Shown here: positions 8,733-61,011 of the stretch, piece by piece
How positions within the stretch are numbered: the stretch's first letter is position 1
Layout: every line of letters starts with the position of its first letter
Source: Liolophura sinensis
Lineage: Eukaryota > Mollusca > Polyplacophora > Chitonida > Chitonidae
Length of the DNA: 64,000 bases
Assembly: GCF_032854445.1 (NCBI RefSeq)
Contig: NC_088295.1
Location: forward strand, 20,075,385-20,139,384
Reading direction: 5' to 3'
Position numbers and translations under genes: made by a program
Notes under the pieces: generated by a model
What the model saw: only the letters and a program-made list of their open reading frames with translations
Databases searched by the model: none
What the model was told of the DNA's origin: nothing

Positions 8733-8974
8733 TCATATGTCTCCACAATTTTGGGAACTAAAGTTATAGGACTGGAGATCGGGCTGCTGGTACAGCCAGC
8801 GGCATTCTTGTTGTTGTTGTTGTTTTAACTTGTCAGGATTATTGATCAGCAGTGGTTCATCTTCCGGAATGGAGGCTTTGACCCTGGGCCATTTTACACT
8901 CAGGACTATCACCACAACAACCCAAACTACCGTCAGGACGGTTAGCCACACTAACACCACTACTTCAAAAACGC
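8733..8974 (-). CDS. Gene F exon 3: transmembrane and tail
   Basis: Acceptor CACACATCAG, phase 1. The frame is open for 79 codons to TGA. It has a strongly hydrophobic V/L/W span, then basic KWPRVK (stop-transfer), EDEPLLI and a (CAA)n-encoded glutamine run. Confidence 0.7.
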
Positions 8975-10150
8975 CTGATGTGTGGGTGCTTTCAGTCGGA
9001 TGTGTTAGTTAACTCCCCTGAAATATTCAGTCGTGTGTATATATATATATATACTTAAGCATGGGAGCTAAAGCAAAGACATATAAAGCAAAATAAAATC
9101 GCCAGGCTGTTACATGGAGGACATGTTCATATACAGACTAGGCCCTGGCAACAAGTCACACATATTATGAATATTTATTTTTTCTTCAATTGTTTTTTTT
9201 TATGTATACCGTGTGACATAAAACGTTGATACAAAACAACATGTAGCTACATCCTTCTGCATACAGATTAAGAAAATAAACGAACATAAACATTATGTAT
9301 ATAATCTATAGCCCCAGAATTTTGTCTTTTCAACTACAAACATAGTAGTACAAATATGAACTACTGAAGAACAGTTTTGGAACAAAATCTGCCTGCAATT
9401 GAATGGCATATGACTGAGCATAGATTAAGCTGTGCTATATCGTAAGTCTTACCTAGCTTATCTTGGCACAAACGTTTCTCTTCTTCCCTGTATGTCCGAT
9501 TCTGGTAATCTGAAAATTATAGTTAGTACACTAGTACAATGTGTAATCAATGACCTTCGTCAAACTTATAAACATTACATAAGGGCATACCCATGTTCAT
9601 ATGACCGACTATAACCATAATGTCTATGATTAATTACTGATAAAATCAGAAATAATTCACCAATGAGGTCATGGTGATAAATCGTGTTAGTTCCCAGTTT
9701 GATGAAGTAGGAATAAACCTATGCCAACAATATCATGTCTGGAGAATATTAGCACTGCTAAGTAAGGGTAATCTACTCTTCTTAGGCTGAGGACAGTAGC
9801 CGTGACATGGGTAGGTTGGGACCGTCTGGCGTGGAGAGAGTACGGTATATAGTCCGTCAGAACATAACAGTGAAAATCTTGATTTGTATTGGCCTGTGTG
9901 TAGATATGTTGACTTACCTCGAACACAAGTGCATACACAAGGCTCTGGCAGTGTGAGATAGGTCTTGCATACCCCTACAGAGCATGGAGAACAGCGCCCC
10001 TCTATATCATCGAAAAAACGAGGGATACCTGCCGTTAATGTGGACAGTCGACAGCCTGGCAGACACCAAAGATTCCCCAATCTTACATAAAAAGAGTGCC
10101 ACTATCATTGCCGGTAGCAAGGATAGCGACTGATTAGGTGTACACTTCAT
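8733..10150 (-). CDS. Gene F: BCMA/TACI-like TNF-receptor family member (three exons, frame break in exon 1)
   Basis: Predicted small type I receptor. Exon 1 (10150-9918) starts with a signal-peptide-like sequence (MKCTPNQSLSLLPAMIVALF). The cysteine domain follows in the next frame: WCLPGC, then RFFDDIEGRCSPCSVGVC and EPCVCTCV. The two frames join if one T is removed from the T5 run at 10089-10093. That same correction gives exon 1 the phase-1 end used by its siblings (donor GTAAGTC). Exon 2 (9509-9453) is a 19-codon stalk with one Cys. Exon 3 (8974-8733) gives a transmembrane span (about 22 residues, WLTVLTVVWVVVVIVLSV) and a short tail with EDEPLL, a possible acidic dileucine signal, then six glutamines. 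Corrected length is about 176 residues. Ligand and signalling are not determinable. It is either a recent pseudogene or an assembly homopolymer error. Confidence 0.65.
9453..9509 (-). CDS. Gene F exon 2: one-cysteine stalk
   Basis: Acceptor ATAATTTTCAG and donor GTAAGAC bound 57 bases, phase 1 at both ends. They encode D-YQNRTYREEEKRLCQDKL, with one Cys and one N-glycosylation motif (NRT). Confidence 0.65.
   Translation of the reverse strand: MTRIGHTGKKRNVCAKIS
9918..10150 (-). CDS. Gene F exon 1: signal peptide and cysteine-rich domain, frameshifted
   Basis: ATG at 10150. The domain frame is +1 relative to the start frame. The third cysteine of the family is replaced by Phe (RFF), and the end carries an extra Cys (CVCTC), as in gene E. 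Confidence 0.65.
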
Positions 10151-10888
10151 CCCGGCTGTCTTTGAAAATGCCTTGAAAGTGGCGCTGTATCTGGTTAGAG
10201 ACTCGGAACAGACACTGACTAATGGTCATGCGTTGTTACGTACTGAATACCCCCGGTACTTATTGTATTTAAGGAGTGGAAATCTACGTCACCCGAGTGA
10301 AAAGTATTTCCTACTCTGGAATTCCCCTGATGTGATTTCTTACACTGCCCACACACTGTGTTACACATATAATCTAAACCACTGCCACCAAAATAAAAAT
10401 ATATAGATTTTTTTGGTGAAGTGTACCCTTTCTCCCTGGGAGAAACAAGTGGGGTTTTGTTTAGGCTTAGCCTGACCACTCGATTGTTCCGCGGACCTAT
10501 GATCAACATTTAGCAGTAAACATGCTTTAGGTTTCTGGTTAGAATCAGGTTATGTACATGCGTACTACTGTAAGACCTGTTTGTCTGCGGTTGAATCACC
10601 TGCGAGACTATCTTACGTTGTCGGTTGGACACGTGACTGGCGTTTGGGGAACAAGTGTTAAATATATGCTGGACAAAGAACGCAAATGCTCTGGTGGGTT
10701 TTCACAAGTGCCACAGCCTGAGAATTTATTATTTAAGACAGAGGTAATCAGTATAAAAGTAGGAGATCTGTAAAAATATGTTCCTTTCCCTTCCTTCCTT
10801 CCTTCTGAGTTTGGATAGTGTTCCCGCTGAGGGGCTCACAAGGAGAAGCAGCCTAGAGGGTAACGTCTGGCAGTCAAGACGGTACAGC

Positions 10889-10975
10889 ACCTGGGTGAAA
10901 TGTATGAATGAAGACTGGCTGTGATCTTGGTAAAACACGTGTTGACTGCTCGGCTGTCTTGGAGGGAAATGGGGG
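10889..10975. repeat. 85-bp dispersed repeat, copy 1
   Basis: ACCTGGGTGAAATGTATGAA ... GCTCGGCTGTCTTGGAGGGA is nearly identical to 12719-12804. Only a G/C difference and a small indel were noticed. Confidence 0.85.
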
Positions 10976-14125: not shown

Positions 14126-14229
<104 letters not shown>

Positions 14230-14286
14230 TGTTTCCTTCTAGGCCCTAATTGAAACTGACTTAGGTAATTATCGAAACCAAAGAAA

Positions 14287-21318: not shown

Positions 21319-24300
21319 CTGTGATAAGACATACATTGTGTTTGATGATTGACATGAGAATAAATCCCACAAACATTCACATTAATCAACTAGCCCTTAA
21401 TTGATGCCATTCGTGTCAAGATTATAAGATTTTCCCTACGAGTTGAATGTAATTATATCTTCAAGACCTTCAATTAGCTCGAATATTCTCACAATTAACT
21501 AATGAAATAATCTCAAAACAGGCCTATCATTAATGGCATCAGCGTAAGTTCTGCAATTCAACCAAAGATCGGTATGTAAAAATGCACTTTCAGAAGCATG
21601 TAAAGTCCTCAGATAAAAGTTTTGATATCAACACTTTAGTTGTCATGATACGAAATATATAAACTTCACAAAAATTTTTACCTTGCCCTATATTAAAGTC
21701 TGATGATTCAGTCAGGATCAAGCACAATGTGTCACTTGAAAAATGCTAAACTTCAACTGAAACACAGTATATACTCTTTAGTTTCTGGTTTACCTCCTTT
21801 AGTGTTGTCTTCAGTAGCCTGAGTGGGGCGGTTCTCAGGTTGAGTGGGTCTTGTCAGACGGATTTTCAACATGGGTGGCTCAATGAAGGGAGCCTCTTCA
21901 CGGGCGTTTCCAGTGGGCTGACCACTGGCAGATGGAGGTATCCAGCCTTCAGAGGTTACCCCAGTAATTGTGGACACAGACTGTTTTCGGCAGTACTTCG
22001 TAATTTTGGACTTAATTATTTTCCTCTTCACCAGTAAAACCACCAGACCTATGCCGATTACAAACAGGGCTATCAGGACTACCACCCATACAGGTACGCT
22101 GTGTTCTGATGATAACCCACCTGTAATCCAAAAAATGACCTCACTGTGTATAATACGGTCCACAGAGTAACGACTGTTATTACCGAATACTGAATAAGTA
22201 CATTAGATTTATACACCAAATCAGTCTCAGCTTCCCGGCTGAATAATTTGAGGGTGCTGTTTATTTATCTCCAATAAGGATGGTCAAACAACAGTCTGGG
22301 GGAGGGAGGGGAGAGGGAGGGGTCGTGGGGTGCGTGAACCCAAACCTGTTGGATGCTATACACAAAAACCACCAATACAATACTAACGATGCCTGCTAAG
22401 TATTTCCCATTGTATGTAGTATAATTGGATGCGATACTCTCGCATACTCTCGTAATAACCATTTAGGCCTATACCTTCGTTCGTGGGCATAGGAGTGGCA
22501 TCTCCACATTCTCTTTCCATCACAGGGTATTCACCGCTGGGCCATTCTGCAAAACAGATAAAGATATACAGGTATATAGTCAAATGTTCAAGGAGAATTA
22601 ATACTAAAATGGAACTGTGGAACAACAGTACTGAGCAGCAATATATAACTAGCATAGTTTATCGTCCTCCTGGTAAAGATGTGAGGCAATTCAATGAACA
22701 GATGACGTCTAAGCTGCAATTCATTCCACAAGGTACAAAATGTATCATAGTTGGCGATTTTAGTACTGACCTGTGTAAAACGCCAAATCACACATGAGTT
22801 CCTTACTAACCTTAAATGTAATTTCTTTTTCCCTCGCTTAACAAAACCAACTTGTGCAAGTTCGCATTCTTATGACAATGTATTTATCAACTTTCATGAA
22901 GATCCTTACCTATCTGGCCTAATACTCACTGATATTAAAGACCATTTTCCTGTATTTAATGTTCACTTATCAGATAAGATCCTTAACACCCCAAGTATGT
23001 AACACCCAGTTTCGCAAAACAACAGAGCAAGGAAAAGGTGAATTGAAAAATTTAACAGCTGCCGTAAGATGGGAAAACGTTCTAAGCGAGTCATCTCCTT
23101 CATAATCCCTAAATACATTTTCTAAAATTTTCTCTCGTATTTATGATTCCTGCTTTCCGCTTGTTTCATCCTCTCTGCGAAGAGGAACAATTAAGTCCTG
23201 GATAACGTTCGGAACCCTTACATCCATACATCACAAAAACAAACTTTACCGAGATCATCTTCGTTCAGATGACAAGAACCTTAAAAAGGGACATAAAGAA
23301 TACAGAAATACACTTAACAAACTTCTCTCTCACTGACGTAAAGCGTATTTCGAGCGAAAGTTTAACGAAGCAAATTAAGACATCAAAGACACTTGGAAAA
23401 CTCTCAATCAAATTCTTTGTCGCAATCAATTACTGTTGACGGCAAACCAATTTCATGATAGCACAGAAAAAGTAAGACATTTTAACACCTATTATGCTTC
23501 CATTGCTGACAGTCTTAGAGAAAGTATGCCAATGTCTACAAGAAATGCCCACGAATATTTATCCCATCCTATGCAAGCAACTTTTTAATTCAGTGCAACT
23601 AATGAATCAGTTGTGAAATCTACCATACTTTCCTTAAAGTCATCCTCACCAGGTATTGACAGTGTCAGCATGTCTATTTTAAAACTTGTATTAGATAATA
23701 TTTCAACGCCGTTGGCCCACATTTTAACCTGTCTTTTCAATGCGGCCTTTTTCTTGACTCCTTGAAATGTGCCAAAATTACACCGGTTTTTCAAACCGGC
23801 GATTTTGATAAACTAGCAAAATTATAGACCAATATCGGCCTTACTATCCTTCAGCAAAATATTACAGATTAACTATCCTTATCTCTCTTGTGCTAATGCT
23901 TTATTGGGGAATGCATTTCCTAGCCATCTTAAACCTTTGTATCTTCTCCAAAAACGAGCTTTCAGAATGACAACTTTAATTCCTAGACTTCAGCACAATG
24001 AGCCTGTATTTATGACATTCAAAATATTTTACATCTATGAGCTAAACATTTTCTCTCAAGTCTTACAGGCGCATAAGTTTCATGCACCACCTATACCAAC
24101 TCCCCCGCTGACTTTCGTCGCCAGTTTAGAAGCCTGAGTGAAACACACTTTTATCCCAAAGTGTGTGTTATCTGACATATCTCTCCACCACCCCAAAGAT
24201 CAAATGTTATATTATCCCATTTATATTTACTACATGTAAATAAAACTGGTGAATAAAAAAGGGAAGTGAAAGGACCATTTCAACCTTTATCCTATCCAAC

Positions 24301-26817
24301 ATTCTCTTTGTTGCATGTCCTGTAAACAGAATGTTTTGTGGGATCAAATTTTCGCGGTCCATCACCCTGCCCGAAGGTGAAAAAAATTCCAAACATGGCA
24401 GAAGATGATTTTTTTTAACAAACATGTCCACATTGTCGACATAATATTAACAAACATTTAAGCTGATGTTAACGAAGTTGGGACTGAATTTTCTAGAACT
24501 CTTGGTGTAAAAGGTTTAACATTAAATTTGGTTCCTCGTCTGTATATTAACATGAAGTTGATGTCAAAGAAGTTGGGTTTGCATTTTAAGAGCTCTTGGT
24601 ATGATATTTTTAACACTGAACATAAGTAACCTTGTTATATTCACCTGAAGTTGACGTCAAAGAAGTTAGAATTGCACTATGTGAAACTTTGGTCATAAAT
24701 GTTTAAACAAAGATGGTCCCCTTAGTGATGAGATATTAAGTACAAGTTGATGTTGAAGAAGCTGAGATAGCATTTTCTGAAACTTTGGTCATAAATGTTG
24801 TGATCTAAAACTACTGTTGTTAAACAAATAAACATTTTTGGCACTTCACCCAAAGTATGGCAAATACGTCATTTTGTTTGACAATCTACTTAAAGAGAGT
24901 TTGTACTTTTTGTGTGAAAAGAGGATTTACATGTAAATCTGAGACTGCTATATGTAGTACACTAAAGCTTCTCTTGGTGAACAGTGCCACCTTGTATTTG
25001 AACCCAGGAGAATGCATGGTGATCATGGATAGTACCAGTGCTTGTATTTGTTCTTTTTCTGACAGTGCACTTTACTGTTATCTCTCTTTTTCTTTTTCCC
25101 GGACTCGGTTTATGCATGGATATTTCGAAAATTCAGTGACATAGACAAACCTTTGTGCTAAACATCAAAATTCTGTTGTGTAATGGCCTACTGTCATGAC
25201 TGTAGTATTTATTTTACTTACTGGTGTTTTACGCCGTAGTCAAGGATGTTTCACTTACACCATAACAGCCAGCAAAAAGATGGGAAGAAGCTGGTCAGTG
25301 CCTGGGGGAAAACCCACTACCAAGCGCAGTATATTCGCAAACCTTCACGCTTACCACCGGAGAGAAAGATAGCATGAGTTGGCCATTGCATCTTGCTTAC
25401 AGGCTGCAATCACTCGTCAGACGGTAGTTAATTAGAGCAGCGTTATCACAAGTCTAGGTAGTCCTGTGACTCGTCAATGCATAGTCATGCGACTAACTGA
25501 ATGAGTTATCTGACCAGCGGAGAGTCCATTGACCAGCGGAAGGAGTCCTTGGAGCAAATGAGCGAGTCTTTTGACCATTAAAGCGAGTCTTTTGTCTAGT
25601 TTAGTGAGTCTTTTGACTAAATGCATGAGTCTGGTGACTACTCATGTGAGTTTTATGACTGACCAAGCGAGTCTTTCATAACTCAGCTGATCTGGTCATA
25701 TGAAATTAGCTCAATTGTATAACTCAGATTATTGAGTCAGTTGACCCGAACTTTTCTCTCTGTGAAGGGTTGAGCGAGTGGTGACCAAATACCAGCTGCC
25801 GTTGGAGCCAAAAAAGGGTCACGACAAACCTAGACCAAATGGCGCTCTTTGCCGCCCAATCAAGATTAAATTACAACACAAGCAAGGCCATTTCAGGACT
25901 GTCAAGTCGTGGCCGAGTTTCACGACAATTTTGATTATGTTCAAACTTGTCGTGAAAGCTTGTCGATCACATAAGACTCAAGAAAAACGACGTTGACATG
26001 GTAAGACTTAACTAAAGCAATTCAAAGACCACTTTAGGAGTAGTGTCCCGAGTCAAGCCGACTTCAGATGTGAAATAGTCGAGAAGGTAGTTCTGACAAA
26101 TGGGAGAGTAGCTGTTCTAAAGTGCTAATTATGCTTTTCATGTTGCTAGAGATGGCACTGTAGCGTTGTATATTTTTTCTATAATATATAGTAATCGATT
26201 GTCATTTGTATTGATTTGTCTACCCTATTTCCAGCACAAAATGGTATGACAAATGGGTTCATTATTCCTTTGCTATACAAAAACTATACTAAGATAAAAT
26301 CTTTGATGGTTATGATTTCAAGCTATTTTCTAATCATATAAACAATATTAAAATGGAAAACATTATAATGGATTATATACATATTTTATCTTATAGAGAT
26401 TATTAAAAGCTTCCTATGATGAGTATAACTAGGGCAGTGTATTTGCAACCTAGATTTAAAAAAAAAAAACTTCTCTGAAATATGTATGCAATCCAACATA
26501 CATGGAGCTGGAATTCATCAAATTTCTAGCAGTTCTAAAAGAAAAAAAAATAAAACACATGCTATCGCAAGATTATCTGTACGTTACTGATAGCAAAATA
26601 CAGGTTTACTGACAATATCCTACGATACTCACCGTTCTTACAAAAACACCGGCAAGCCTCAGGGAGATATCTAGACATCTTACACACATTTAACGAGCAT
26701 GTTTCACATCTCTTTTCTATCTCATTCCAGTACCAGGGCGTTCCATTTTTCGAGGCACAGTGCCGAACCCTTGTCGTCCCTGTCATTGGTCCCATCACCA
26801 CTAACAACACAAATCAT
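21083..26817 (-). CDS. Gene E: BCMA/TACI-like TNF-receptor family member (four exons, frame break in exon 1)
   Basis: Exon 1 (26817-26633) carries WYWNEIEKRCETCSLNVC and LPEACRCFC. This is the closest match in the window to the TACI/BCMA module (aromatic pair before CxxC, then C..C..C). A short hydrophobic start (MIVLLVV) is in frame only if one T of TTT at 26811-26813 is removed. Otherwise the domain frame meets a stop just upstream and the first in-frame ATG (26795) gives no signal peptide. Exon 2 (22546-22475) is a one-Cys stalk. Exon 3 (22120-21794) has a 25-residue membrane span (VWVVVLIALFVIGIGLVVLL) then KRKIIKSK. Its tail contains PTQAT, fitting the TRAF-binding consensus PxQxT. Exon 4 (21318-21083) has PSEEE. 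About 272 residues when corrected. Intron 1 is about 4 kb and holds a LINE relic. The last exon may instead end at a donor at 21163. Confidence 0.65.
21794..22120 (-). CDS. Gene E exon 3: transmembrane and proximal tail
   Basis: Acceptor TTTTGGATTACAG and donor GTAAAC bound 327 bases, phase 1 at both ends. The membrane span follows residues GLSSEHSVP, then comes a basic stop-transfer and a Pro/Thr-rich tail. Confidence 0.75.
22475..22546 (-). CDS. Gene E exon 2: one-cysteine stalk
   Basis: Acceptor TTATCTGTTTTGCAG and donor GTATAGG bound 72 bases, phase 1 at both ends. They encode WPSGEYPVMERECGDATPMP, with a single Cys and an acidic/Pro-rich character. Confidence 0.65.
22590..24140 (+). mobile_element. 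Decayed non-LTR retrotransposon (LINE), core deleted
   Basis: Plus-strand fragments in order: endonuclease (ITSIVYRPPGKD, CIIVGDFSTDL), its C-end (DNVFINF...SGLILTDIKDHFPVF), the linker before the reverse transcriptase, the early reverse transcriptase (SSPGIDSVSMSILKLV, then the KITPVFxxGD region), and after a jump the extreme C-end (PLYLLQKRAFRMTTLIPRL). Many stops and frameshifts are present. Most of the reverse transcriptase, including the catalytic YADD region, is gone between about 23850 and 23890. It lies in intron 1 of gene E, antisense to it. Confidence 0.8.
24440..24810. repeat. About 94-bp tandem repeat, four units
   Basis: GTTGATGTCAAAGAAGTTGG and variants recur near 24463, 24554, 24648 and 24744, with GAAACTTTGGTCATAAATGT in the last two. 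Moderately diverged. Confidence 0.75.
25207..25400 (-). mobile_element. Diverged SINE
   Basis: TTTACTTACTGGTGTTTTACGCCGTAGTCAAGG, then GGGGGAAAACCCACTACCA and a worn head region (GGAGAGAAAGATAGCATGAG). Old copy within intron 1 of gene E. Confidence 0.75.
25490..25740. repeat. 24-bp degenerate repeat of GAGTC-N4-GACTA
   Basis: GAGCGAGTCTTTTGACCATT and variants recur about every 24 bases, six or more times between 25558 and 25680, with looser units on each side. Each unit pairs GAGTC with GACT or GACC, so it is partly self-complementary. Confidence 0.7.
26633..26817 (-). CDS. Gene E exon 1: cysteine-rich domain
   Basis: The domain frame ends C-R-C-F-C-KNG and splices at AACG/GTGAGTATC in phase 1. 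It lacks the second and third family cysteines (…GTPWYW…) and gains one between the last two. An alternative to the frameshift is an upstream signal-peptide exon joined at TTGTTAG (26803) in phase 1. Confidence 0.65.
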
Positions 26818-37264: not shown

Positions 37265-37446
37265 CTATACAATGCGCAGGTCAAGCTCCCTGTGAGCATT
37301 GGTCTCGTCCTCTGGGTGTGTTCGGATATGGCGAAGGGACTCGCTGGAGGACCGCTGAGAGGCTAGTGAAGCTTGACTTCCGCTAATGGCTTCTCCCACC
37401 AATGGGGCCTTCTGATCTGCCGATTCTTCACCTGTCCCCACAGGGG
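37265..37446 (-). CDS. Gene B exon 5: cytoplasmic tail
   Basis: Acceptor TTGATGTTTCCAG, phase 1. Begins PVGTGEESADQ, then serine-rich SQASLASQRSSSESL, and stops at 37265. Confidence 0.75.
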
Positions 37447-40340
37447 CTGGAAACATCAACGGATATACAATCATTTGGCACACATGCAGAGAGAGTTAAG
37501 TTTACCGCTATAGATGTGGGACCATAGTTAACAACACGAGCCTTTATGGCCATATAGGCCTTATTTACTCTCTTTGCACATGGATGGAAGTTTTCAAATG
37601 ACAAGTATCAGTATTACTAAACTTCGTGCTCTGGAGTTCATAAAGCCTCCAAACCAAGGGATCCCAGTATATATGTAATGTACATGTGTAGCTTATGCAC
37701 AAGTATATGGAAATTATTTTCGGCGAATATTTATTTATTTGATTAGTGTTTTACGCCGTACTCAAGGATATTTCACTTATACGACGGCGACCAGCATTAT
37801 GGTGAGAGGAAAGAGGGCAGAGCCTGGGGGAAACCCATGACCATCCACAGGCTGCTGACACACCTTCTCACGTACGACCGCAGATTCGGCGAATACTTAC
37901 CATGTGTGACTCCCCGGAGCACGTTCAGATTCCCGCCAATGTAATAGTACAGCCGTGTCTTGATAACAGGGTGAATGAGAGCTATGTTCAGCAGAACAGA
38001 GACAAGTAGGGTCAGGCTGAGAATTGTAACCACTACACTACCATGTTGTCCTGTAACAGTTAAATAACACACCATACATATCAAATCAGCATTATGCAAC
38101 TCAAATAAATAAGCTCTCCCAACAATAGTATACACCTTTCTAACAGAACAGAATGCTTATATTATTATATTAGTGGTCAGGCTGGGTATTGAAACATTCC
38201 ATGTCTATGCCACCAGACACCAACACAGTATGTACAGTGTAGGAGGAATCCTGTGGTCGATGTGAATTCAAGTCAATACTGAAGGAAATAGTAGAATGGG
38301 GGAACGCCATGCTGTAAGTACGAATTGGCCATAGTATTATCCAGACACACTGGATGCTGTCCGTCAACTTGCGCAGAAATCATCACCAATTTGTATTGTA
38401 AATCTTAAATAGGTAAGTTTATGACACGGCAGAGAATTAACATAAGCCCCACATTAAGATACTGCATTCACCAAGGCACGCACTAACCATGATGTAAGCA
38501 TGACTTTTTACTAGTGTGTTAGTGCAAGCTACTACATACAATAACATTCTCGCACAATTCATTCGACTGGAAGGGAAACGAGTAGCGTTTGGATACTTAC
38601 CGCATTCGGATGGATTGGCGTCTTTACCGGTTGGGGACTCTGTGAAGAAAATGATATTACATTTAAGTCTTTTCAGTTTATACACGAATTCACGTTTTCA
38701 CGTTTTCACGTTTTCTCTGCATGGATGCGTACATAAAAGGTGGCTTATGAATAATACCCTTGATAGGGAATTGTCGGTACCAGAGTCTTGAGAGACACAT
38801 ATGCCTATATACGGAAAATTGTATCTGAGTATATCTCGACGGCGCAGTAGGAGCTAATTTACCTTATTTGTTCAGTAAATTGGTGGATAGAATCTGGGTA
38901 GTTTTGAGGAAGGAAAATTAATCTTTAGACCAGTTTTGTACTTACTTTTGCCGGGCTGGGTGCTGACAGAGAGGCTTTTTGTCTGTCCCTTGTCTGGAAC
39001 AGTTGTTGGGGGTTCTGTGGCAGAATGTTGAGATCCTTACATCGTGGAGAAAAATAGAACTAAAATCTTACGTAACTGGCAATTATATATTCATGTCATT
39101 TCCATTTTCAGTCACAGATTTATGAACCCTTCAGCCCTGAGCCCTGAGTTTATTATGGTGTGTATAGAGAGCCCCGCAAGTCTGAACTGATTACCACGTA
39201 TGGAACATAGATAAACCATTATCAAACCGTGCAGTATTCAGTTAATTACAAGTAATGCATAGACAAACAATCAACAAACCGTGCAGTATTGAGTTGATTA
39301 CAACAAGTTATACATAGACAAATAACTACTTAACCTGCAGTATTAAGTTAATCACGGCGTATGATGTACTAATAGAGAGATAATTAGGGAGCATCAAGTT
39401 GATTGGGACATATTATGTATAAACATATAAGCGGCGAACCCTGCAGTGTAAAATTAATCACGGCTAGTGATGAATAGACAAACAATTAGCGAGATTAGCA
39501 GTGTCGAGTTAATTACGACATATGATGTTAACACAATAATTAGCGAGCCCTATAAGATTGAGTTGATCACAACGTGATGTATCGACAAATAATTAGGAAG
39601 CTGTGCAGTGTCGAATAGGATGTATGGTGAATAACGAGCAACCCCTTTAGTAATGCGTTAATCACAGGTTATGTATAGACAATAGTTAGCGAGAACTACA
39701 GTATTTTGTTGATCATGACATGTGATGTACAGATTTATTTTTTTATTTGATTGGTGTTTTACGCCGTATTCAAAATATTTCACTCAATACGACGGCGGTC
39801 AGCATTATGGTGGGAGGAAACCGGGGGAAACCCATCGCCTTCCGCAGGTTACTGTCAGACCTTCCAACGTGCGACCGGAGTGTGATGTATAGACAAATAA
39901 TAAGCAAAGCCTGCAGTATTAAGTTAATTACTACATGTGCTATACGGACAATAATCCCAGTGGTATTTCACTGATTACGACATTTGATGCACAGAGCAAA
40001 CAACCCTTTCGAATTGAGCAGATAATATATAATTATATTCAGTTTGCGTTGGGTGCATATATACTTCTCCGTCGTGACAGTGATTCGGCGACCGTTAGCT
40101 TATGAACTTACCCCCAGAGCAGAATGCCCGGCAAGGTAGTGGTATGTTGGGAAATTTACAGGCTGATGTAGAGCATGGCTCACACCGGTCCTCCACTCCA
40201 CAGTACTGAGGGATAATCATTCCCCGGCGCGAAACAGTCCTACAAGGTATACCCCCACAAGGCAGCCAGTCTTCGCTAGTAGCCAGCTCAGTTCGTCCGA
40301 GGACGAGCAACGCTAAACAACCTACCCACAGGAGGTGCAT
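37265..40340 (-). CDS. Gene B: BCMA/TACI-like TNF-receptor family member, complete five-exon model
   Basis: Predicted 222-residue type I receptor. Exon 1 (40340-40112): signal peptide MHLLWVGCLALLVLG, then an eight-cysteine domain at about residues 28-73 (CGGIPC, QYCGVEDRCEPCSTSAC, LPCRAFC). Exon 2 (39014-38946): Pro/Thr/Ser-rich stalk. Exon 3 (38639-38601): 13-codon stalk with one Cys. Exon 4 (38050-37901): membrane span about residues 118-140 (VVVTILSLTLLVSVLLNIAL). Exon 5 (37446-37265): Ser-rich tail with TGEE, fitting a TRAF-type [PSAT]x[QE]E motif, ending in TAG. All four introns are phase 1 with canonical GT-AG sites, and the exon sum (669) is a multiple of three. The start is the inner ATG because it gives a standard signal peptide. 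No death domain. Intron 1 holds a minisatellite and a SINE, intron 4 another SINE. TNFR assignment is from cysteine spacing only. Confidence 0.8.
37730..37882 (-). mobile_element. SINE without tRNA head, in intron 4 of gene B
   Basis: TTTGATTAGTGTTTTACGCC ... GGGGGAAACCCATGACCATC ... CACCTTCTCACGTACGACCG. It stops about 20 bases from the splice donor of exon 4, so the insertion lies very close to the exon. It lacks the promoter half, like the copies at 45899 and 49734. Confidence 0.85.
37901..38050 (-). CDS. Gene B exon 4: transmembrane
   Basis: Acceptor TTTAACTGTTACAG and donor GTAAGTATT bound 150 bases, phase 1 at both ends, with one hydrophobic span. Confidence 0.8.
38601..38639 (-). CDS. 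Gene B exon 3: one-cysteine mini-exon
   Basis: Acceptor ATTTTCTTCACAG and donor GTAAGTATC bound 39 bases, phase 1 at both ends, giving SPTGKDANPSEC-G. One Cys just outside the membrane. Confidence 0.7.
38946..39014 (-). CDS. Gene B exon 2: Pro/Thr/Ser stalk
   Basis: Acceptor ATTCTGCCACAG and donor GTAAGTA bound 69 bases, phase 1 at both ends, giving PPTTVPDKGQTKSLSVSTQP. A likely O-glycosylated stalk with no Cys. Confidence 0.7.
39190..40020. repeat. About 60-bp degenerate tandem array in intron 1 of gene B
   Basis: Variants of CCTGCAGTATTAAGTTAAT, CACGACATATGATGTATAGAC and AAATAATTAGCGAG recur about 12 times. A SINE (39731-39885) interrupts it. Confidence 0.75.
39731..39885 (-). mobile_element. 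SINE without tRNA head, inside the array
   Basis: GATTGGTGTTTTACGCCGTA ... GCATTATGGTGGGAGGAAAC ... CCTTCCAACGTGCGACCGG. Flanked by TGTGATGTACAG and TGTGATGTATAG, but that word also belongs to the array, so a target-site duplication cannot be proven. Confidence 0.9.
40112..40340 (-). CDS. Gene B exon 1: signal peptide and cysteine-rich domain
   Basis: ATG at 40340; donor GGGG/GTAAGTTCA at 40111, phase 1. Eight cysteines. Confidence 0.8.
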
Positions 40341-49107: not shown

Positions 49108-49508
49108 TCACAAAACCATTTGACCTTTAGTACTGGAGCCGTCCTCGGGATGCGGTATGGGACGCCCTTCATGCACACTGATATTTGGGCAGCTGTGCGG
49201 TTGTGACCCTCCCAAGCGCAGTGCTGTCTGGCAGGCACAAGTTGAACATTTGGCTGGTACAGTTGATGATGGTTGTGTTGGCGCATGATCTTGTGTTTGG
49301 CTAAGTAGCATCTGCACCTCCCGATCATTAATGATGTCTACTTGATGAGATGGGCTGCGAACGACCTTCATTTCAACTTCCATAAGATTCATGTTCTTTT
49401 TCATCATGAGGGACAGGTGTCTGGCCTTCAGGGAAATACACACTAATGCAACGAGCAAAGCTAATACAAGAATCCACGCCGTAATCTCACGCCCTGAGAT
49501 CGCTTCAT
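49108..49508 (-). CDS. Gene D exon 3: transmembrane and tail
   Basis: Acceptor TTTCTATTGTCAG, phase 1. The frame is open to TGA at 49108. Confidence 0.78.
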
Positions 49509-50787
49509 CTGACAATAGAAACGAGGACATGGTATCAACGTTAAATGGAAAACGAATCAACTTCTGAAATCCCTTGTGTAAAAGGTTTGGTGAGAAACGA
49601 TTTGTGAGAGGTAATAAGTCTTTAATTTGGCGTTATTAGGTCTACTTTGTTCTAGTCAGAGTCATTATTGTTTGTACTAAAGCGAATCAGTGACACAAGT
49701 AATGGTATTGGAGCATCGATCTACAGCGATATACTCCCCGGCCGTACAAGGAAGGTCTGCCACCAACCAGCGGATGATCGTGGGTTTCCTCCGTGCTCTG
49801 CCCGGTTTGCTCCCTCCATAATGCTGACCGCCGTCGTATTAGTGAAATACTTGAGTACGGCGTAAACACCAATCAAATAAATAAATACAGCGATATAGCA
49901 CAATTTAAACTTCGCGCGAAGATCACGTGCATCGATTTTCTTATGCCACCCCATATTCTTGAAAACGCTTAACACCAAGGAGATAAAGAAATAAATACTA
50001 AAAATGCGTTAACAGTCGACTGGCCGTTTTGTGAGGAACAGAGGCCATACCAACAATTTGTGACATAGCACACAAAACAAACGCATGTTGCTTTAAATGT
50101 TTTAACATAACAGCTTACCCCAGCAGACATAGTCATTGTCGGGATTTTGAGCGTTGGGACCTGAAAGTAGAACAAATAATACAAACATGACCAAAGTTAC
50201 ACAACGGGTATAAGTAACCTATACTGGAGATACTGAAGTTTTCAGAATTATAAGCAGATCATGCCGATATGTATTAGCGTAATTAAACCTCCACAAAGCA
50301 GGCATCCTGCACTGTAGACCGATTGACTGATCGATTGAATTTTATTTAAAGCCATATGATGAAGAATTTATACGGTGGCTGTCAGCTAACTGACGAGCCT
50401 TTGTTCATGTGGTGACAACCTGTATATTGAGCCCTAGCCACTGATAAAATCACTGGTAAGATTAAAAGCATGAGGGGCTTGTATTAAGTTCTTCGGTCAT
50501 CTCGGTCAAACAACATAGCTATAGGCAGTAGAGCTGGCTACATAGACAAACTCACCTACTGTACCGCCTTGACAACCTCGCCATTGCCGGCAGACGTCTA
50601 AGTTACACGTGGAGGGCGAACAGCTTTCACAGCGACCCTGAATGGAACAGAACCTGATGTCTGTGCCTGTGGACTCACAGTCGTCGTTGACACAACTGTC
50701 AAAACCTCTAGCAACTCTTCCCTCCATAGTTCCTAGGGCACAGGCTACGCTCAAGAAAGGTACATAAAACAGGAGACATGTACTCAT
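49108..50787 (-). CDS. Gene D: BCMA/TACI-like TNF-receptor family member, complete three-exon model
   Basis: Predicted 224-residue type I receptor. Exon 1 (50787-50556): signal peptide MSTCLLFYVPFLSVACALG, then an eight-cysteine domain (DSCVNDDC, RFCSIQGRCESCSPSTC, VCRQWRGC). Exon 2 (50160-50119): 14-codon stalk with one Cys. Exon 3 (49508-49108): membrane span (ITAWILVLALLVALVCISL), then a tail with PTQPS (TRAF-type PxQx[ST]) and a Cys cluster (CSTCAC). Introns are phase 1 with GT-AG, and the exon sum is 675. The end of the domain (C-x4-C with Arg/Trp between) resembles gene A rather than B or C, so A and D form a subgroup. A frame four codons longer upstream lacks ATG. Confidence 0.78.
49734..49885 (+). 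mobile_element. Headless SINE with 12-bp target-site duplication
   Basis: Starts CTCCCCGGCCGTACAAGGAA, the same internal point as the copy at 45899. It ends (AAAT)n and is flanked by TACAGCGATATA (49722-49733 and 49886-49897). In intron 2 of gene D, antisense. Confidence 0.93.
50119..50160 (-). CDS. Gene D exon 2: one-cysteine mini-exon
   Basis: Acceptor TCTACTTTCAG and donor GTAAGCTG bound 42 bases, phase 1 at both ends, giving GPNAQNPDNDYVCW-G. Confidence 0.7.
50556..50787 (-). CDS. Gene D exon 1: signal peptide and cysteine-rich domain
   Basis: ATG at 50787; donor GTAG/GTGAGTTT at 50555, phase 1. Confidence 0.78.
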
Positions 50788-50805
50788 GTCTACAATACAT
50801 GTCAC

Positions 50806-52626: not shown

Positions 52627-53183
52627 TTAATCTGATGATGTTCTTGCAGTTATCGTTTTCAGTGATGTCTCTTCGTCCAACGAGAATGTTTGTTGTAAAC
52701 GCTGAGATGACAGATTCCTGGAAATGGTGGGTACCTCTGAAGAGGTGTCTGTTATCTGACTGTCACAGCGACATAGCGGAGGACTCGATGCGGGGCTGTC
52801 ATTATCACAGCCTGTCTCACAGTCTCCAGAGTTGGACTGGCGGCAAACATCGAAGTCATATCGTAAAGCTAAGGAGCCATCTTCCACAGGCAAACTTGGA
52901 ACAGTATTCGTTACGTGTATAGGCACAGATCTCGGTTGGTGAATTGACAGGAATGGTTTAGTGGACGTCAAGGCTGATGCTGATACGCCATTAACCTTGT
53001 TCATCTGTTTTCTTGGGGCTGTCGGCTTTATGTCTGGCTTCACTCCATAACCATAAGCTTGCTTCATCACCAGCAGAAATCTCATATTAACGAGATTAGA
53101 GACAACGTTCACCACGAGCATAACCATTATAGTAGCAGCTATTATAGTGAGTCGAATTAACTGTACTTCAGTCAGCGATGTGT
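52627..53183 (-). CDS. Gene C exon 3: transmembrane and long tail
   Basis: Acceptor CTTTCTGTTTCAG, phase 1. Open for 185 codons to TAA. Confidence 0.8.
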
Positions 53184-55273
53184 CTGAAACAGAAAGTTTC
53201 ACAACTAGTAAACGTGTTTTTTTCAATATGATTTTTTTTTTTTGATTGGTGTTTTACGCCGTACTCAAGAATATTTCACTTAGACGACGGCGGCCAGCAT
53301 TATGGTGGGTGGAAACCGGGCAGAGCCCGGGGGAAACCCACGACCATCCGCAGGTTGCTGACAGACCTTCCCACTTACGGCCGGAGAGGAAGCCAGCATG
53401 AGCTGGACTTGAACTCACAGCGACCGCATTGGTGAGAGGCTCCTGGGTCATTACGCTGCGCTAGCGCGCTAACCGACTGAGCCACGGAGGCCCCTTTTCA
53501 ATATGACATGTATCTTGAATAATCATTCGTACATATTAGTCAGTACCAAATTTTATGTCTTAATTTCTGTATTCTGTATACTACTCACAAAAAAAAACAC
53601 ACGGAAGGTAAACAGAGACTATCCCGATCTGGTATTCTGAGGTAATATTGCGAACCACATTAATAACATACATATATGAATACAGTGTTAACTGTTACCT
53701 GTTGATACGCATTCTGTTAACTTGGCGTTTGCCGTCATCATTTTGTTGAGTCCTGAAGTTGGGAAAAATAAGAAAGAAAACATTATATTACATATATTAT
53801 ACCTGATATACAGTTCCAGGAATTGTTGTGTATTGGTATTTGCAAATATATGTCTTCATATAACCACCCAGCTACACTGACCCACACGGATAAGTATTTA
53901 GTAGCCAATAGACCGACACTAATTGAAAGATCATTAAATAATGGCTAATGCAAATTATACTTTTTAATATCTAAAACTAAAAGTTATTAGCAGTGATGTT
54001 CATGTTTCATGTGAATGAAATCCCAACAAATTTCTGATGTCGAAGTGCAAATTGGCTTATTGCACGTGTATAGGTACTTGAAGTGGTCCACATATTGGGT
54101 AGTCCATCTAGATGTGTTATTCAAACTCTTATTCATCGAGACAAAGGCCATCAGTATCTGAACCCAGCGCCAGCTTGGCACAGATTATTTATTTATTTTA
54201 TTTGATTGGTTTTTTTACACCGTACGCAAGAATATTTCACTTAAACGACGGCGGTCAGCATTATGGTGGTAGGAAACGGGACCTAATCCGCGCTCAAGAC
54301 CTGCAACTTGCCTGCATGGTGGTTCAGAAGTGAATAAGCTAATACCGGTATTATCATATATATATATACACGATTTTAACAAAATCCAGCAACCATTGGG
54401 TTGTACAGAGGCCAAATGGATGGCAGCAAATTTAGTTCATATCCAAGATGCTGTTACACAATTATTTTGTGGCTAAGTAACATACTGAACACTTGGCTTA
54501 ATCTTCTAAATCTGGTCTAAAATTGAACAATATAGCAAGGATGTTAGGTCTAATGACTGTTAATGTAACAAAAAAAACTATCGCAAAGTTTTCTTTGTTT
54601 TGCAGGGGGGTGGGGGGGGGGGTGGGAGGGGGTTATCTTGATGAGATTTTCTGCATTTTTTTAAGGTGAACTGTTAAACCCACAAACATTTCTTTTGACT
54701 TGCAGGACACAAACAAGTTAAAACTTTCCTTCGTTTCACCATCCTGAGGAAAGAGAGATATCGACAAATAAAGAAAAACTAGGGCGTTCATTTCAAAAGA
54801 TACGCGGCCTTTGTCTTTGGATTCGAATTCCTTATATATACAGTATATATGGAGTTACTAAATAAAATGCTTATTTTACAATGGGTAGCTGCACATTATG
54901 TTAAAATGTGACATTAGATCATATGGGTAGCATATGGGTAGCAAATGCCAGTCATTGTGTAGCAGTTATTACACTATGAGATTTTGCTACATCATGGGCG
55001 TTTGTACACGCCATACTTTGTACATGTCTGACAGTGAAACATTTAGATCTTACCAAAGCAGAAATGTTGACAGTCCTTTGGGAGATACTTCAGGCGGCAA
55101 AGTGCTACACTACACGGACTACAGCGTTCCTCCATCTTATCACAGTAAAACCCTGATCGACACAAGTCCGAAAAACAAGAGTCGACGCCCTGGCTTGGCG
55201 GATCGGACGAGACCGGTGTCAACATAATGATCAGACTCAGTATACGAAAAGCAAAGCTAAGACTGGTCGACAT
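52627..55273 (-). CDS. Gene C: BCMA/TACI-like TNF-receptor family member, complete three-exon model
   Basis: Predicted 276-residue type I receptor. Exon 1 (55273-55054): signal peptide MSTSLSFAFRILSLIIMLTP, then an eight-cysteine domain (DSCFSDLC, GFYCDKMEERCSPCSVALC, LPKDCQHFC). Exon 2 (53752-53699): 18-codon stalk with one Cys. Exon 3 (53183-52627): membrane span about residues 102-125, then the longest tail in the cluster (about 150 residues, Ser/Thr/Pro-rich with a Cys-Asp patch, DVCRQSNSGDCETGCDND). Introns are phase 1 and the exon sum is 831. The tail has no death domain. A full-length SINE sits in intron 2. An extra stalk exon in the 1.3-kb intron 1 cannot be excluded. Confidence 0.78.
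53232..53494 (-). mobile_element. Full-length tRNA-derived SINE with target-site duplication
   Basis: Complete from the A-rich end and TTTTACGCCGTACTCAAGAA to the tRNA head (GCGCTAACCGACTGAGCCAC, minus-strand A box). Flanked by TTTTCAATATGA on both sides (ending 53231, and 53495-53506). In intron 2 of gene C, same strand as the gene. Confidence 0.95.
53699..53752 (-). CDS. Gene C exon 2: one-cysteine mini-exon
   Basis: Acceptor TTCCCAACTTCAG and donor GTAACAG bound 54 bases, phase 1 at both ends, giving LNKMMTANAKLTECVST-G. Confidence 0.7.
54186..54280 (-). mobile_element. SINE tail fragment in intron 1 of gene C
   Basis: TTTTATTTGATTGGTTTTTT, then CAAGAATATTTCACTTAAAC and GCGGTCAGCATTATGGTGG. 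Confidence 0.85.
54604..54634 (+). repeat. Guanine-run tract
   Basis: GCAGGGGGGTGGGGGGGGGG and GTGGGAGGGGG give several runs of three or more G. A quadruplex is possible on the plus strand. Confidence 0.6.
55054..55273 (-). CDS. Gene C exon 1: signal peptide and cysteine-rich domain
   Basis: ATG at 55273; donor TTTG/GTAAGATC at 55053, phase 1. Confidence 0.8.
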
Positions 55274-57039: not shown

Positions 57040-57850
57040 TCAACGCCAGGACACCTGTCCAGCCTGCAAATATCACGTGGAATATGGAGGAACATGTCCT
57101 GATTGCGAATATCACGTGAACATAAGGGCAATTGTCCTGCCAGCGAATATCACATGCACATGGGGGCGCCTGTCCTACCAGCGAATATCACGTGGATATA
57201 AGAGCCCCTGTTTTGTCAGCCGGCGAATATCACATAAACATGAAGTCACCTGTTCTGCCAGCGAATATCACATGAACATGAGAGCATCTGTCCACCCAGC
57301 CCGTATGTGAACATGAGGGCACCTGTCCTACAAGCGAATATCACGTGGATATGAGGGTCCCTGTTCTGTCAGCCGGCGAATATCACATGAACATGAGGGC
57401 ACCTGTCCTACCAGCGAATATCATGTGGATATGAGGGCCCCTGTTCTGTCAGCCGGCGAATATCACATGAACATGAGGGCAGCTGTCCTACCAGCGAATA
57501 TCATGTGGATATGACAGCCCATGTTCTGTCAGCCGGCGAATATCACATGAACATGAGGGCACCCGTCCTACCAGCGAATATCACGTGGATATGACAGCCC
57601 CCTGTTCTGTCAGCCAGCGAATATCACATGAACATGAGGGCACCTGTCCTACCACCGGATATCACATGGATATGACAGCCCCTGTTCTGTCAGCCGCGAA
57701 TATCACATGAACATAAGGACACCTGTTCTGCCAGCGTATATCACGTGAATACGAGAGCATCTGTCCATGCAGCCCGCGAATATCACGTGAATATGAGGGC
57801 ACCTACACCGCCAGACAACGAATATCACATAAATATAAGAGCGCCTAGCT
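57040..57850. repeat. 80-bp dimeric minisatellite
   Basis: Two related half-units alternate: GCGAATATCACATGAACATG + AGGGCACCTGTCCTACCA (about 38) and GCGAATATCATGTGGATATG + AGGGCCCCTGTTCTGTCAGCCG (about 42). The dimer period is 80 between 57371 and 57451. The outer units are single and more diverged. Confidence 0.9.
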
Positions 57851-59314: not shown

Positions 59315-59844
59315 CTAAAGTATTTCACCTGGCTGTTGAGGTAGGCGGTGATTGTGTGGTACCGGTGTGGTATGAAACTGTGTGCAGTCCTGCTCAGGCT
59401 CCTGTATACCACTGTCAGCACTATGGTACACTATCATCGGGATCGTCTGGTCAGAATCCCCTCGGTACGGTGCCTGGGAATTGCCCCGGGGCGTGGTCTG
59501 GGATTANNNNNNNNNNNNNNNNNNNNNNNNNNNNNNNNNNNNNNNNNNNNNNNNNNNNNNNNNNNNNNNNNNNNNNNNNNNNNNNNNNNNNNNNNNNNNN
59601 NNNNNNNNNNNNNNNNNNNNNNNNNNNNNNNNNNNNNNNNNNNNNNNNNNNNNNNNNNNNNNNNNNNNNNNNNNNNNNNNNNNNNNNNNNNNNNNNNNNN
59701 NNNNNNTGCCCCCGGGGCGTGGTCTGGGATTACATCTAGGACAGAGCAACTTAGGCCTGAAGATAGCTAGAATAGTGATGATAGTCAGGATGGCGACGAG
59801 TACACAAAGACCATAAAATCTGTACACCAGATCGTCGACGGTTG
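59315..59844 (-). CDS. Gene A last exon: transmembrane and tail, with gap
   Basis: Includes the N run at 59507-59706. The tail beyond the gap carries DSDQTIPMIVYHSADSG, shared in outline with the orphan exon at 7412-7527. Confidence 0.6.
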
Positions 59845-60710
59845 CTAGAAAATAAAATAAAATACATGCTAATTATTATGACCTGGGACACACAATATTT
59901 TGTATATACCACCGTATATATGGATGAAAAACACTTTCCATCAGTGTTATTCGGAAAGAAGAATTGTCTAATGTTCAGGTATAAAAGATTACTGCTCAGG
60001 TGTTAATGATGTACATATGTACTCTCTTACTTACACCCCTAGAGTGTGCACTTACCCCTCAACTTATCAACAGACTGTTGCAGCATTTCCGTCTCCCTTC
60101 TGTCCGATTCTGAATTTGATTTTGTTACCTCATCATGATGAATCTCGGATACAGGTACACCTGCTGTGATAGCTGAAAGAAAAGAGCCAGTACATGTCAT
60201 ATACGCAAAACATATCAAGCGTTATATACAAATGTGACGATATGTTTAGCAATTTACTGTCTGTTATGTTGATCAGTCTGAATGCCTCCAGCACAACCAA
60301 CAAAACCTTCTTCAGTTGGTACTGGAAAGATCAGACTATAAAGATGCCATAGAGCATTCGATATCGACAAAAGCACACTGCAGTGCATCATGTGAGGCAC
60401 TGCGGTATACAGATGGCTTATATTATATCTACCATTCCACTGTAGGCGGTGTTGTGTTGCTGCAGCCATTCCACGCGCCACAGATGACCTCTTCGCAGGT
60501 ACGAACGGTACAGCTCTCACATCGCGTCTCTACTTTGTTACAAAACTCAGGGGTGGGACGTTTTTGAGTATCACAGGTGTCCGAGCCACACGTTGCCAAA
60601 TCATGGCTGCCGGGTTTTGGGTAGGGATGAGCGTGTGTAGTCCTCACCACCCATAAACAATACATGTATATCCACACCGCAGGCCTAGCTTCGATGACGG
60701 GGAGCTTCAT
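59315..60710 (-). CDS. Gene A: BCMA/TACI-like TNF-receptor family member, interrupted by a gap
   Basis: Exon 1 (60710-60429): signal-peptide-like start MKLPVIEARPAVWIYMYCLW and an eight-cysteine domain (TCGSDTC, EFCNKVETRCESCTVRTC, VICGAWNGC). A stalk exon at 60172-60056 (acceptor TTTCTTTCAG, donor GTAAGTG, phase 1 both ends, 39 acidic codons, no Cys) and a last exon from 59844 (acceptor TTTTCTAG, phase 1) give a membrane span (YGLCVLVAILTIITILAI) and tail. The 200-N gap lies in the tail. Using the right-hand flank's five C's, the frame continues beyond the gap to TAG at 59315, about 50 more residues. Exon 1 has no phase-1 donor; the best GT (TG/GTAGATA) is phase 2. A further one-Cys exon near 60315-60254 (PTEEGFVGCAGGIQTDQ) also mismatches in phase. 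So the 5' structure is unresolved: sequence error, missed exon or pseudogene. Confidence 0.62.
59507..59706. other. Assembly gap of exactly 200 N
   Basis: Both sides end or begin with the same sequence, GGGGCGTGGTCTGGGATTA, with four versus five C's before it (TTGCCCC and TGCCCCC). The contigs appear to overlap rather than to be separated. Confidence 0.9.
60056..60172 (-). CDS. Gene A acidic stalk exon
   Basis: 117 bases, phase 1 at both ends. Rich in Glu/Ser/Asp with no Cys. Confidence 0.6.
60254..60315 (-). CDS. Possible gene A one-cysteine stalk exon
   Basis: Acceptor CTGATCTTTCCAG. Read in phase 1 it gives PTEEGFVGCAGGIQTDQHNR, one Cys as in the siblings. The only nearby donor (ACA/GTAAAT) leaves phase 2, so it does not join cleanly to the next exon. 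Confidence 0.35.
60429..60710 (-). CDS. Gene A exon 1: signal peptide and cysteine-rich domain
   Basis: ATG at 60710. All eight cysteines are present; the 3' splice position is unresolved. Confidence 0.72.
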   Translation of the reverse strand: MKLPVIEARPAVWIYMYCLWVVRTTHAHPYPKPGSHDLATCGSDTCDTQKRPTPEFCNKVETRCESCTVRTCEEVICGAWNGCSNTTPPTVEW

Positions 60711-60828
60711 CGTGATGACTGCTCAGATAATAGCCTAGAGCATGCCTTAAATGCAAAGGGAAATTTGACGGAAATCCCCCTGTTTATATACAAAGGGAAT
60801 AGGCCTATACGTGACCTATATTGATAGT

Positions 60829-61011
60829 CTATGTACCTTTGCAGCGTGACTCAATATGTCTGCTGTTGTCTCGTGGACATGAGTGTTGTTTTGGAATTAC
60901 GCAGTTCTCACCACTGATCGACTGACTTATGCTTGGTATCATTTTAAAGGCATAAAATATGGTGCTGTAGGAAATTACACTTGTAATCAAGAGTAAATAA
61001 TTTATAAACAT
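60829..61011 (-). pseudogene. Relic or truncated first exon of a seventh receptor
   Basis: ATG at 61011 opens a hydrophobic signal-like stretch (MFINYLLLITSVISYSTIFY), then CVIPKQHSC and HIESRCK-G, followed by a GTACATAG stop or donor. The string IESRC matches the family core (VEDRC, MEERC, VETRC), but the CxxC and later cysteines are missing. It sits directly upstream of gene A on the same strand. Confidence 0.45.

Follow-up and report, generated by a model that had tools for sequence, protein, structure and literature searches.

Cysteine-rich module genes at the locus

The window, that is, the whole 64,000-nucleotide stretch of Liolophura sinensis DNA that was analysed, contains six minus-strand cysteine-rich modules, A to F, which belong to one family. 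A first-pass annotation had described them as six genes accompanied by a relic first exon and an orphan tail exon, and this observation is confirmed in part: the family and its six modules stand, but of the genes in the window C, D and E alone appear complete. Neither of the two additional features was confirmed: the supposed relic exon (60832-61029) scored E 100 (1.6 bits), 467th of the 4,603 listed, and the best tail-like stretch, at 9690-9974, had an E value of 0.12. The features are as follows; signal peptides were judged by eye, with no predictor, and hence are called signal-peptide-like.

Gene A, first exon: 9918..10150, minus strand; signal-peptide-like segment (start 10150) and module 9918-10065, in different frames; phase-1 donor after 9918
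Gene A, candidate stalk mini-exon: 9453..9509, minus strand; phase 1-1, predicted
Gene A, transmembrane and tail exon: 8733..8974, minus strand; phase-1 acceptor not the best-scoring one
Gene B, module: 26633..26774, minus strand; stop shortly upstream, no in-frame signal peptide seen
Gene B, transmembrane and tail exon: 21753..22120, minus strand; hydrophobic, phase-1 acceptor
Gene C, first exon: 40112..40340, minus strand; signal-peptide-like start, eight-cysteine module, phase-1 donor
Gene C, candidate stalk mini-exon: 38946..39014, minus strand; predicted
Gene C, candidate stalk mini-exon: 38601..38639, minus strand; predicted
Gene C, transmembrane exon: 37901..38050, minus strand; phase 1-1
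Gene C, tail exon: 37265..37446, minus strand; phase-1 acceptor
Gene D, first exon: 50556..50787, minus strand; signal-peptide-like start, short-loop eight-cysteine module, phase-1 donor
Gene D, candidate stalk mini-exon: 50119..50160, minus strand; predicted
Gene D, transmembrane and tail exon: 49108..49508, minus strand; hydrophobic, phase-1 acceptor
Gene E, first exon: 55054..55273, minus strand; signal-peptide-like start, eight-cysteine module; BCMA-like model
Gene E, candidate stalk mini-exon: 53699..53752, minus strand; predicted
Gene E, transmembrane and tail exon: 52627..53183, minus strand; hydrophobic, phase-1 acceptor
Gene F, first exon: 60432..60710, minus strand; signal-peptide-like start, short-loop eight-cysteine module, no phase-1 donor
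Gene F, candidate stalk exon: 60056..60172, minus strand; predicted
Gene F, transmembrane exon: 59707..59844, minus strand; runs into the assembly gap 59507-59706

The signal-peptide-like start of gene A has no in-frame continuation into the module, which lacks a start of its own frame. In gene B a stop lies about 19 codons before the first module cysteine, and the in-frame ATGs that follow the stop open no signal peptide. Judged from the sequence, C, D, E and a further copy, G (see below), look whole, and A, B and F seem to be either damaged or not yet modelled in full.

Module family and copy number

A search of the genome for further copies, proposed with the first description, yielded two, G and H, on the same chromosome as the window. 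In leave-one-out profiles, run against a background of 5,617 six-frame segments (the window and six further stretches), each of the eight modules (six in the window, two elsewhere) ranked directly behind its seven training modules and above every background frame, with E values of 1.6e-13 to 6.8e-4 for the held-out module against 0.015 to 0.42 for the best background. Module D is the weakest member (E 6.8e-4 versus background 0.02). Modules A and H, which lie 18.6 Mb apart, are 62% identical (E 3.9e-9), with a dN of 0.25 and a saturated dS of 2.7 over 37 codons, one H codon at a gap being omitted; on these sequences their divergence is mainly synonymous.

A profile scan of 70 loci (12,600 segments) recovered the eight known modules and no others, the best non-module values being E 0.12 (L007) and E 0.24 (L050 and L055, which are the same place). 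The stretch L055:139-396, which gave E values of 0.015-0.6 in smaller profile searches, may be a decayed module copy. Among the genome matches of the protein search, L030, L031, L045, L046, L050, L052 and L053 were rejected as copies, since no module was found on reading them, as was L036, by eye an ephrin-receptor-type stretch. Eight haemocyanin units in a row were also noticed, a sign of a mollusc.

Exon structure and tails

A phase-1 donor follows the module in A to E and G, that is, in six of the seven genes A to G, F being the one without, and another can be read after the module of H. Downstream of the module, a phase-1 acceptor opens a hydrophobic exon in each of A to G, and in every gene except A it is the best-scoring acceptor within 60 bases, on splice scores taken from a generic consensus that was not trained on Liolophura. 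These exons contribute a 19-residue hydrophobic segment of mean hydropathy above 2.3, a property that by itself is not rare among reading frames: 14 frames pass the same threshold on the minus strand, and six of them are among these exons. A single predicted transmembrane helix after the module, the arrangement of BCMA/TACI-type receptors, is present in A to G. Copy H showed no convincing transmembrane exon within about 18 kb.

Candidates for stalk mini-exons were found in two of seven introns in a strict first pass and, with thresholds loosened afterwards, in six of seven for phase 1 (seven places; none in B), compared with none on the opposite strand and none across 33.5 kb of minus strand between genes. 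In phases 0 and 2 the sense strand yielded four and three candidates and the opposite strand zero and two; phase is not specific for the stalk candidates. Of the shared architecture originally proposed, the phase-1 donors and transmembrane exons are recurrent and the predicted stalk exons are in excess of controls, but F lacks the donor, B the signal peptide, and that of A is out of frame.

The tails are less alike. Comparison between copies gave nothing convincing, the best value (E 0.12, A versus B) falling within the membrane segment; no Pfam domain exceeded the cut-off in the tails of A, B, C, D, E and G; and four classes of TRAF-binding motif occurred at shuffle level in the five tails of A, B, D, E and G. 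Given such tails, with no Pfam domain and TRAF motifs at chance, the earlier proposal that TNF-type signalling has a new branch here claims more than the data support.

These features bear on one alternative, that the genes are of the TNF-receptor kind and are now mostly decaying copies, or soluble or membrane decoys able to bind ligand but not to signal. The lack of a usable in-frame signal peptide in the first exons of A and B, the absent donor of F and tails devoid of shared motifs or TRAF-motif excess are all what it would predict, but C, D, E and G appear intact, the A-H divergence is mainly synonymous, and even A and F retain candidates for stalk exons; we regard this alternative as quite improbable.

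Cysteine spacing and predicted fold

BCMA, a member of the TNF-receptor family on human B cells, has a six-cysteine spacing of x12-x2-x3-x8-x3. Modules E and G have the spacing C-x12-C-x2-C-x4-C-x8-C-x3-C, one residue off the BCMA/TACI type (x12-14, 2, 3, 6-8, 3), whereas the other six modules range over x15-19, 2, 4, 4-10, 3-5; the BCMA/TACI spacing that had been claimed for the whole cluster is thus close in E and G but less good elsewhere. Eight cysteines are found in C, D, E, F, G and the frame-doubtful A, and seven in B and H, and the second cysteine of C-x2-C is invariant (8/8). All eight modules have I, V or M at the position four before C-x2-C, and at the position six before it four have Asp and two Asn. 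By their place in the sequence, these residues are in register with the Asp-x-Leu hairpin that TACI and BCMA carry, a motif described in PMC8024323. Asp-x-aliphatic occurs at this register in A, E, G and H, and the Asp is absent from C and D.

An AlphaFold model of module E, built with an eight-sequence alignment, had a pLDDT of 78.5 and a pTM of 0.52. Among the best 50 of 213 Foldseek matches, ranks 1-13 were all human BCMA entries (E 0.015 to 0.23), with TM by target of 0.64-0.81, rmsd of 1.3-2.1 A and 28-31% identity. Ranks 14-15 were TACI (probability 0.33 and 0.23) and rank 17 was Drosophila Grindelwald (probability 0.14, rmsd 6.5 A), with spider toxins and clotting-factor domains interspersed among them. 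No match reached E 0.001, and the thirteen best represent a single protein. The outer domain of E is predicted to fold like BCMA, as a hairpin plus two short helices. The model of module D (pLDDT 73.7, pTM 0.45) found no TNF receptor among the best 50 of 66 matches. The structural comparison supports a BCMA/TACI module for E. A search of a viral fold library returned nothing better than E 0.56; its matches, weak or incomplete, included short pieces of poxvirus TNF-receptor-like and chitin-binding proteins.

Sequence profiles and the Kunitz question

In Pfam searches at E 10, none of the six modules A to F matched TACI-CRD2, BCMA or TNFR_c6, and thus the profile comparison suggested at the outset assigned no TNF-receptor family to any of them; module E had a sub-threshold RING match alone (E 0.035). 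The profile from one alignment listed TACI first (E 0.08). That from alignment A3 listed a serine protease and Kunitz domains (E 0.35-0.98) and not TACI. The sequence-profile link to TACI is therefore alignment-dependent and ambiguous, and the comparison gave no support for BAFF-R or Fn14. Such weak scores are expected, because a TACI query itself reaches BCMA only at E 0.13. A genome search with the TACI-CRD2 family found nothing and is uninformative, since it was equally silent in control genomes, and a PDB search with the sequence of module H alone found nothing relevant.

The same profiles raise a second alternative, a chiton- or mollusc-specific cysteine-rich domain whose likeness to BCMA arose by convergence, for example a Kunitz-like fold that became shorter or some other small disulfide fold, in which case the proteins might act in adhesion or defence, or as inhibitors anchored in the membrane. 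Kunitz stood above TACI and BCMA in four of six profile versions (A3, A4, L-INS-i and core6), its score being reached by 0, 0, 3 and 11 of 2000 cysteine-keeping shuffles, respectively, fewer than matched TACI in the same four versions; the A3 profile also listed Kunitz in the PDB (E 0.68), and the unmatched model of D fits this alternative as well. However, Kunitz domains are not known to have a counterpart to the invariant second cysteine of C-x2-C, and the Gly that precedes the following cysteine in the Kunitz signature is missing from all eight modules. Nor did any of the six window modules match a Kunitz family in Pfam, or the E model a Kunitz chain among its best 50 of 213 structural matches. 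On the invariant extra cysteine and these two negative searches, a Kunitz identity was judged less likely, and convergence as a whole seems unlikely.

Ligands and known receptor systems

The search of the genome for TNF ligands, also among the proposed checks, was successful, with eight PF00229 places over the cut-off, seven of them on contig C12. Twelve TNFR_c6 places exceeded the cut-off, and the 23 TNFR_c6 matches obtained in the genome at E 1 all fall outside the window. TNF-receptor expansion in molluscs is already known, PMC4979521 giving 17 in Crassostrea gigas.

The chiton genes resemble BCMA and the second module of TACI (TNFRSF17/TNFRSF13B) in the predicted fold of E, the one hydrophobic segment after a single module, the near-BCMA spacing of E and G and the hairpin register of A, E, G and H. 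They differ in one or two extra cysteines, in tails with no excess of TRAF motifs, in the low identity of E to BCMA in the structure alignment, and in their signal-peptide-like starts, BCMA and TACI not being known to have a signal peptide. Like Grindelwald they are putative single-module receptors of an invertebrate, and the model of E likewise has a hairpin with helices after it; eight cysteines occur in C, D, E, F, G and the doubtful A, seven in B and H, but the spacing differs and the superposition on E is poor. Grindelwald is not known to lie in a cluster. According to PMC8024323, Grindelwald has a single eight-cysteine module, a hairpin followed by helix-loop-helix, that lacks the Asp-x-Leu hairpin motif.

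Proposed origin and significance

The BCMA/TACI reading rests on the modelled fold, and the original interpretation is upheld for the fold of E; the model of D and the Pfam searches lent it no support, and a signalling branch goes further than the data. Our preferred explanation, which we hold to be probable, is a birth-and-death cluster of type I membrane receptors with a single module, members of the TNF-receptor superfamily of the same kind as BCMA, the second module of TACI, Fn14 and Grindelwald, and probably a new branch. A signal peptide would direct the protein to the cell surface, where a transmembrane helix and a short stalk made by splicing would anchor a module of seven or eight cysteines, predicted for E to consist of a beta-hairpin and, after it, two short helices. 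With these helices and the tip of the hairpin the module might clasp a TNF trimer from the side, as BCMA and Grindelwald do. The tails, diverged beyond recognition, could serve a different adaptor in each copy or make it a decoy, and copies would arise by duplication and then decay.

More tentatively, and with more doubt than confidence, BCMA-type single-module receptors may not be an invention of vertebrate B cells: lophotrochozoans may keep a fast-turnover chromosomal family, invisible to current family models, in which each copy joins a conserved TNF-gripping module to a freshly evolved tail and is matched to one of the TNF ligands that the genome itself encodes. Published counts of invertebrate TNF receptors likely rest on family models such as TNFR_c6, and the present family escapes such models despite the BCMA-like predicted fold of E, the signal-peptide-like starts and the transmembrane exons. 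If confirmed, it would mean that invertebrate receptor sets are undercounted and would provide candidate partners for the many molluscan TNF ligands; it also bears on whether the BCMA and Grindelwald kinds go back to a shared ancestor or to two origins.

A Family of at Least Eight Cysteine Modules

The cluster is real, rapidly diverging and partly decayed, and it consists of receptor-like genes in a chiton. The source organism, at first described as a probable mollusc, carries eight haemocyanin beta-sandwich units consecutively on contig C8, and consecutive units of this kind are typical of molluscs. The minus strand of the window, read directly, contains six cysteine-rich exons that show the pattern noted by the first-pass annotation, and a profile built from eight copies ranks all six far over background. 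The modules lie at the following places:

9918-10150, minus strand, first exon of A (module at 9918-10065)
26633-26774, minus strand, module of B
40112-40340, minus strand, first exon of C
50556-50787, minus strand, first exon of D (short-loop subtype)
55054-55273, minus strand, first exon of E
60432-60710, minus strand, first exon of F (short-loop subtype)
C1:19757844-19758074, plus strand, copy G, ~0.32 Mb from the cluster
C1:1504820-1505053, minus strand, copy H, ~18.6 Mb from the cluster

Copies G and H were recovered by whole-genome protein searches (609,464,459 bases in 632 contigs), as the first-pass annotation had proposed, and one chromosome-sized contig, C1, whose positions 20075385-20139384 form the window, holds all eight modules. 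The family has at least eight copies, a lower bound because six of the eight exons (C to H) served as queries and the search scored only the best candidates. Beyond the modules, the eight-copy profile gives at best E 0.067 in the window plus six further stretches (a single domain value at L055 being 0.028). Over all 70 loci (12,600 segments), too, the eight modules alone stand out, the next segment having E 0.12. When left out in turn, each module was placed right after the training members among 5,617 segments (E 1.6e-13 to 6.8e-4), D being the weakest. The supposed relic first exon (60832-61029) received zero profile support. A weak module-like frame in L055 (139-396; ~0.62 Mb off the cluster; E 0.015-0.6, varying with the profile) is perhaps a decayed copy.

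Intact-Looking and Apparently Damaged Copies

To speak of six working genes was an overreach. The module of A is out of frame with the signal-peptide-like start; B carries a stop ~19 codons ahead of its first module cysteine, and the ATGs that follow this stop in frame yield no signal peptide; a phase-1 donor is missing from F, whose tail enters a 200-base assembly gap (59507-59706). In G and H, the signal-peptide-like start shares the frame of the module. Comparison of A with H gave dN 0.25 and dS 2.7 (saturated) over 37 codons; the differences are chiefly synonymous, which suggests that the module has been under constraint for the greater part of its history, the A copy included. The gap in the F tail has an identical short sequence on either flank and is perhaps a collapsed repeat.

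The module family, its hydrophobic exons and the concordance of their splice phases are shown by the sequence. A phase-1 donor follows the module in A to E and G and, on reading the sequence, in H; a hydrophobic exon starts at a phase-1 acceptor in A to G, this acceptor being the top score within 60 bases in all but A (six of seven). Fourteen minus-strand frames of the window exceed the hydropathy threshold, six of which are hydrophobic exons of the cluster, and C has an additional phase-1 tail exon.

As a group, the tiny stalk exons that had been claimed likely exist, since the candidates exceed the phase-1 controls; each single one is a prediction. A strict mini-exon scan of the introns gave candidates in C and F alone, and loosened thresholds gave phase 1-1 candidates at seven places in ~15 kb (A, C, D, E, F and G), with none in the B intron. 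No phase-1 candidate came from these introns on the opposite strand, nor from 33.5 kb of intergenic minus strand. The scan is not specific to phase 1, as the sense strand gave four places in phase 0 and three in phase 2, against none and two, respectively, on the opposite strand. The candidate stalk exons of A (9453-9509), C (38601-38639), D (50119-50160) and E (53699-53752) each encode a single cysteine, which is absent from those of F and G and from the second one of C; these lone cysteines could form covalent dimers.

The window also contains the following features, the last two judged by eye and having no Pfam match:

33167-34606, tandem repeat array, 178-base units
57048-57804, tandem repeat array, 38-80-base units
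63498-63841, tandem repeat array, 51-base units
45487-45861 and 18668-19093, transposase- and reverse-transcriptase-like remnant frames

Identity of the Module

Judged by sequence, the identity of the module is ambiguous. Comparison with Pfam, suggested by the first-pass annotation, assigned none of the six window modules to a TNF-receptor family. Against 177,635 PDB sequences, a six-sequence profile ranked the second module of TACI first (E 0.08), and the eight-sequence alignment profile returned a serine protease and three Kunitz chains (E 0.35-0.98), TACI not being listed; as a yardstick, a TACI query reaches BCMA at a mere E 0.13. Across six profile versions, the cysteine-keeping shuffles (of 2000) that reached the real score numbered 0 to 127 for TACI, 9 to 182 for BCMA and 0 to 38 for the Kunitz domain, which had the top score of the three in four versions, TACI having it in two; BAFF-R and Fn14 had no support in this test. 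The claimed BCMA/TACI spacing is approached in E and G, whose core spacing (x12-x2-x4-x8-x3) is one residue off that of BCMA. Position -4 relative to C-x2-C holds I, V or M in all eight modules, and position -6 holds Asp in A, E, G and H, Asn in B and F, and Cys in C and D; in BCMA and TACI the tip of the Asp-x-Leu hairpin falls here. According to PMC8024323, this tip is a ligand contact in BCMA and TACI and is absent from Grindelwald.

The predicted folds, which cover E and D of the eight modules, give for E a clearer answer than its sequence, namely, a hairpin-helix fold. With the AlphaFold model of E (8 sequences; pLDDT 78.5, pTM 0.52), the best 50 Foldseek matches comprise BCMA entries at ranks 1-13 (best E 0.015), TACI at 14-15, Grindelwald at 17 and otherwise unrelated small domains. 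The structural comparison agreed with the earlier assignment for E. The model of D, of the short-loop subtype (pLDDT 73.7, pTM 0.45), had nothing relevant among the matches listed. The extra cysteines in C to G resemble the doubly cross-linked hairpin of Grindelwald described in the same source, although the E model superposes poorly on that protein. With the fold taken from one predicted model, the genes fairly probably encode BCMA-like TNF receptors with a single module.

Ligands, Tails, and Proposed Function

Expansion of TNF and TNF receptors in molluscs is already published, with 17 TNFRs (PMC4979521) and 23 TNF ligands (PMC12843592) given for Crassostrea gigas; among invertebrates, receptors with a single module have been described in Drosophila (PMC8024323). 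Searches of the open-licence literature turned up no publication on BCMA-like receptors in lophotrochozoans, which speaks only weakly for novelty, and TNF goes unmentioned in the main text of the Liolophura japonica genome paper (PMC11068029).

The proposed search for TNF ligands gave eight TNF-domain places over the cut-off in the genome, seven of them on contig C12, mostly in two groups, which suggests that the ligands form clusters of their own. Separate TNFR_c6 receptors occur at 12 places over the cut-off among 23 matches, none of the 23 inside the window. TRAF sites are not in excess in the tails of A, B, D, E and G, and no Pfam domain exceeds the cut-off in those of A to E and G, so that a new signalling branch claimed too much. 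Copy G lies outside the window (L039:8281-8874, L034:1384-1614); its first exon looks whole, and past the transmembrane segment it has a long Pro/Gln/Thr-rich tail with TPQTSA repeats.

We infer that, at the cell surface, the module would grip a TNF trimer. Because the tails have neither an excess of TRAF sites nor Pfam domains over the cut-off, the adaptors may differ from copy to copy, or some copies may act as decoys.
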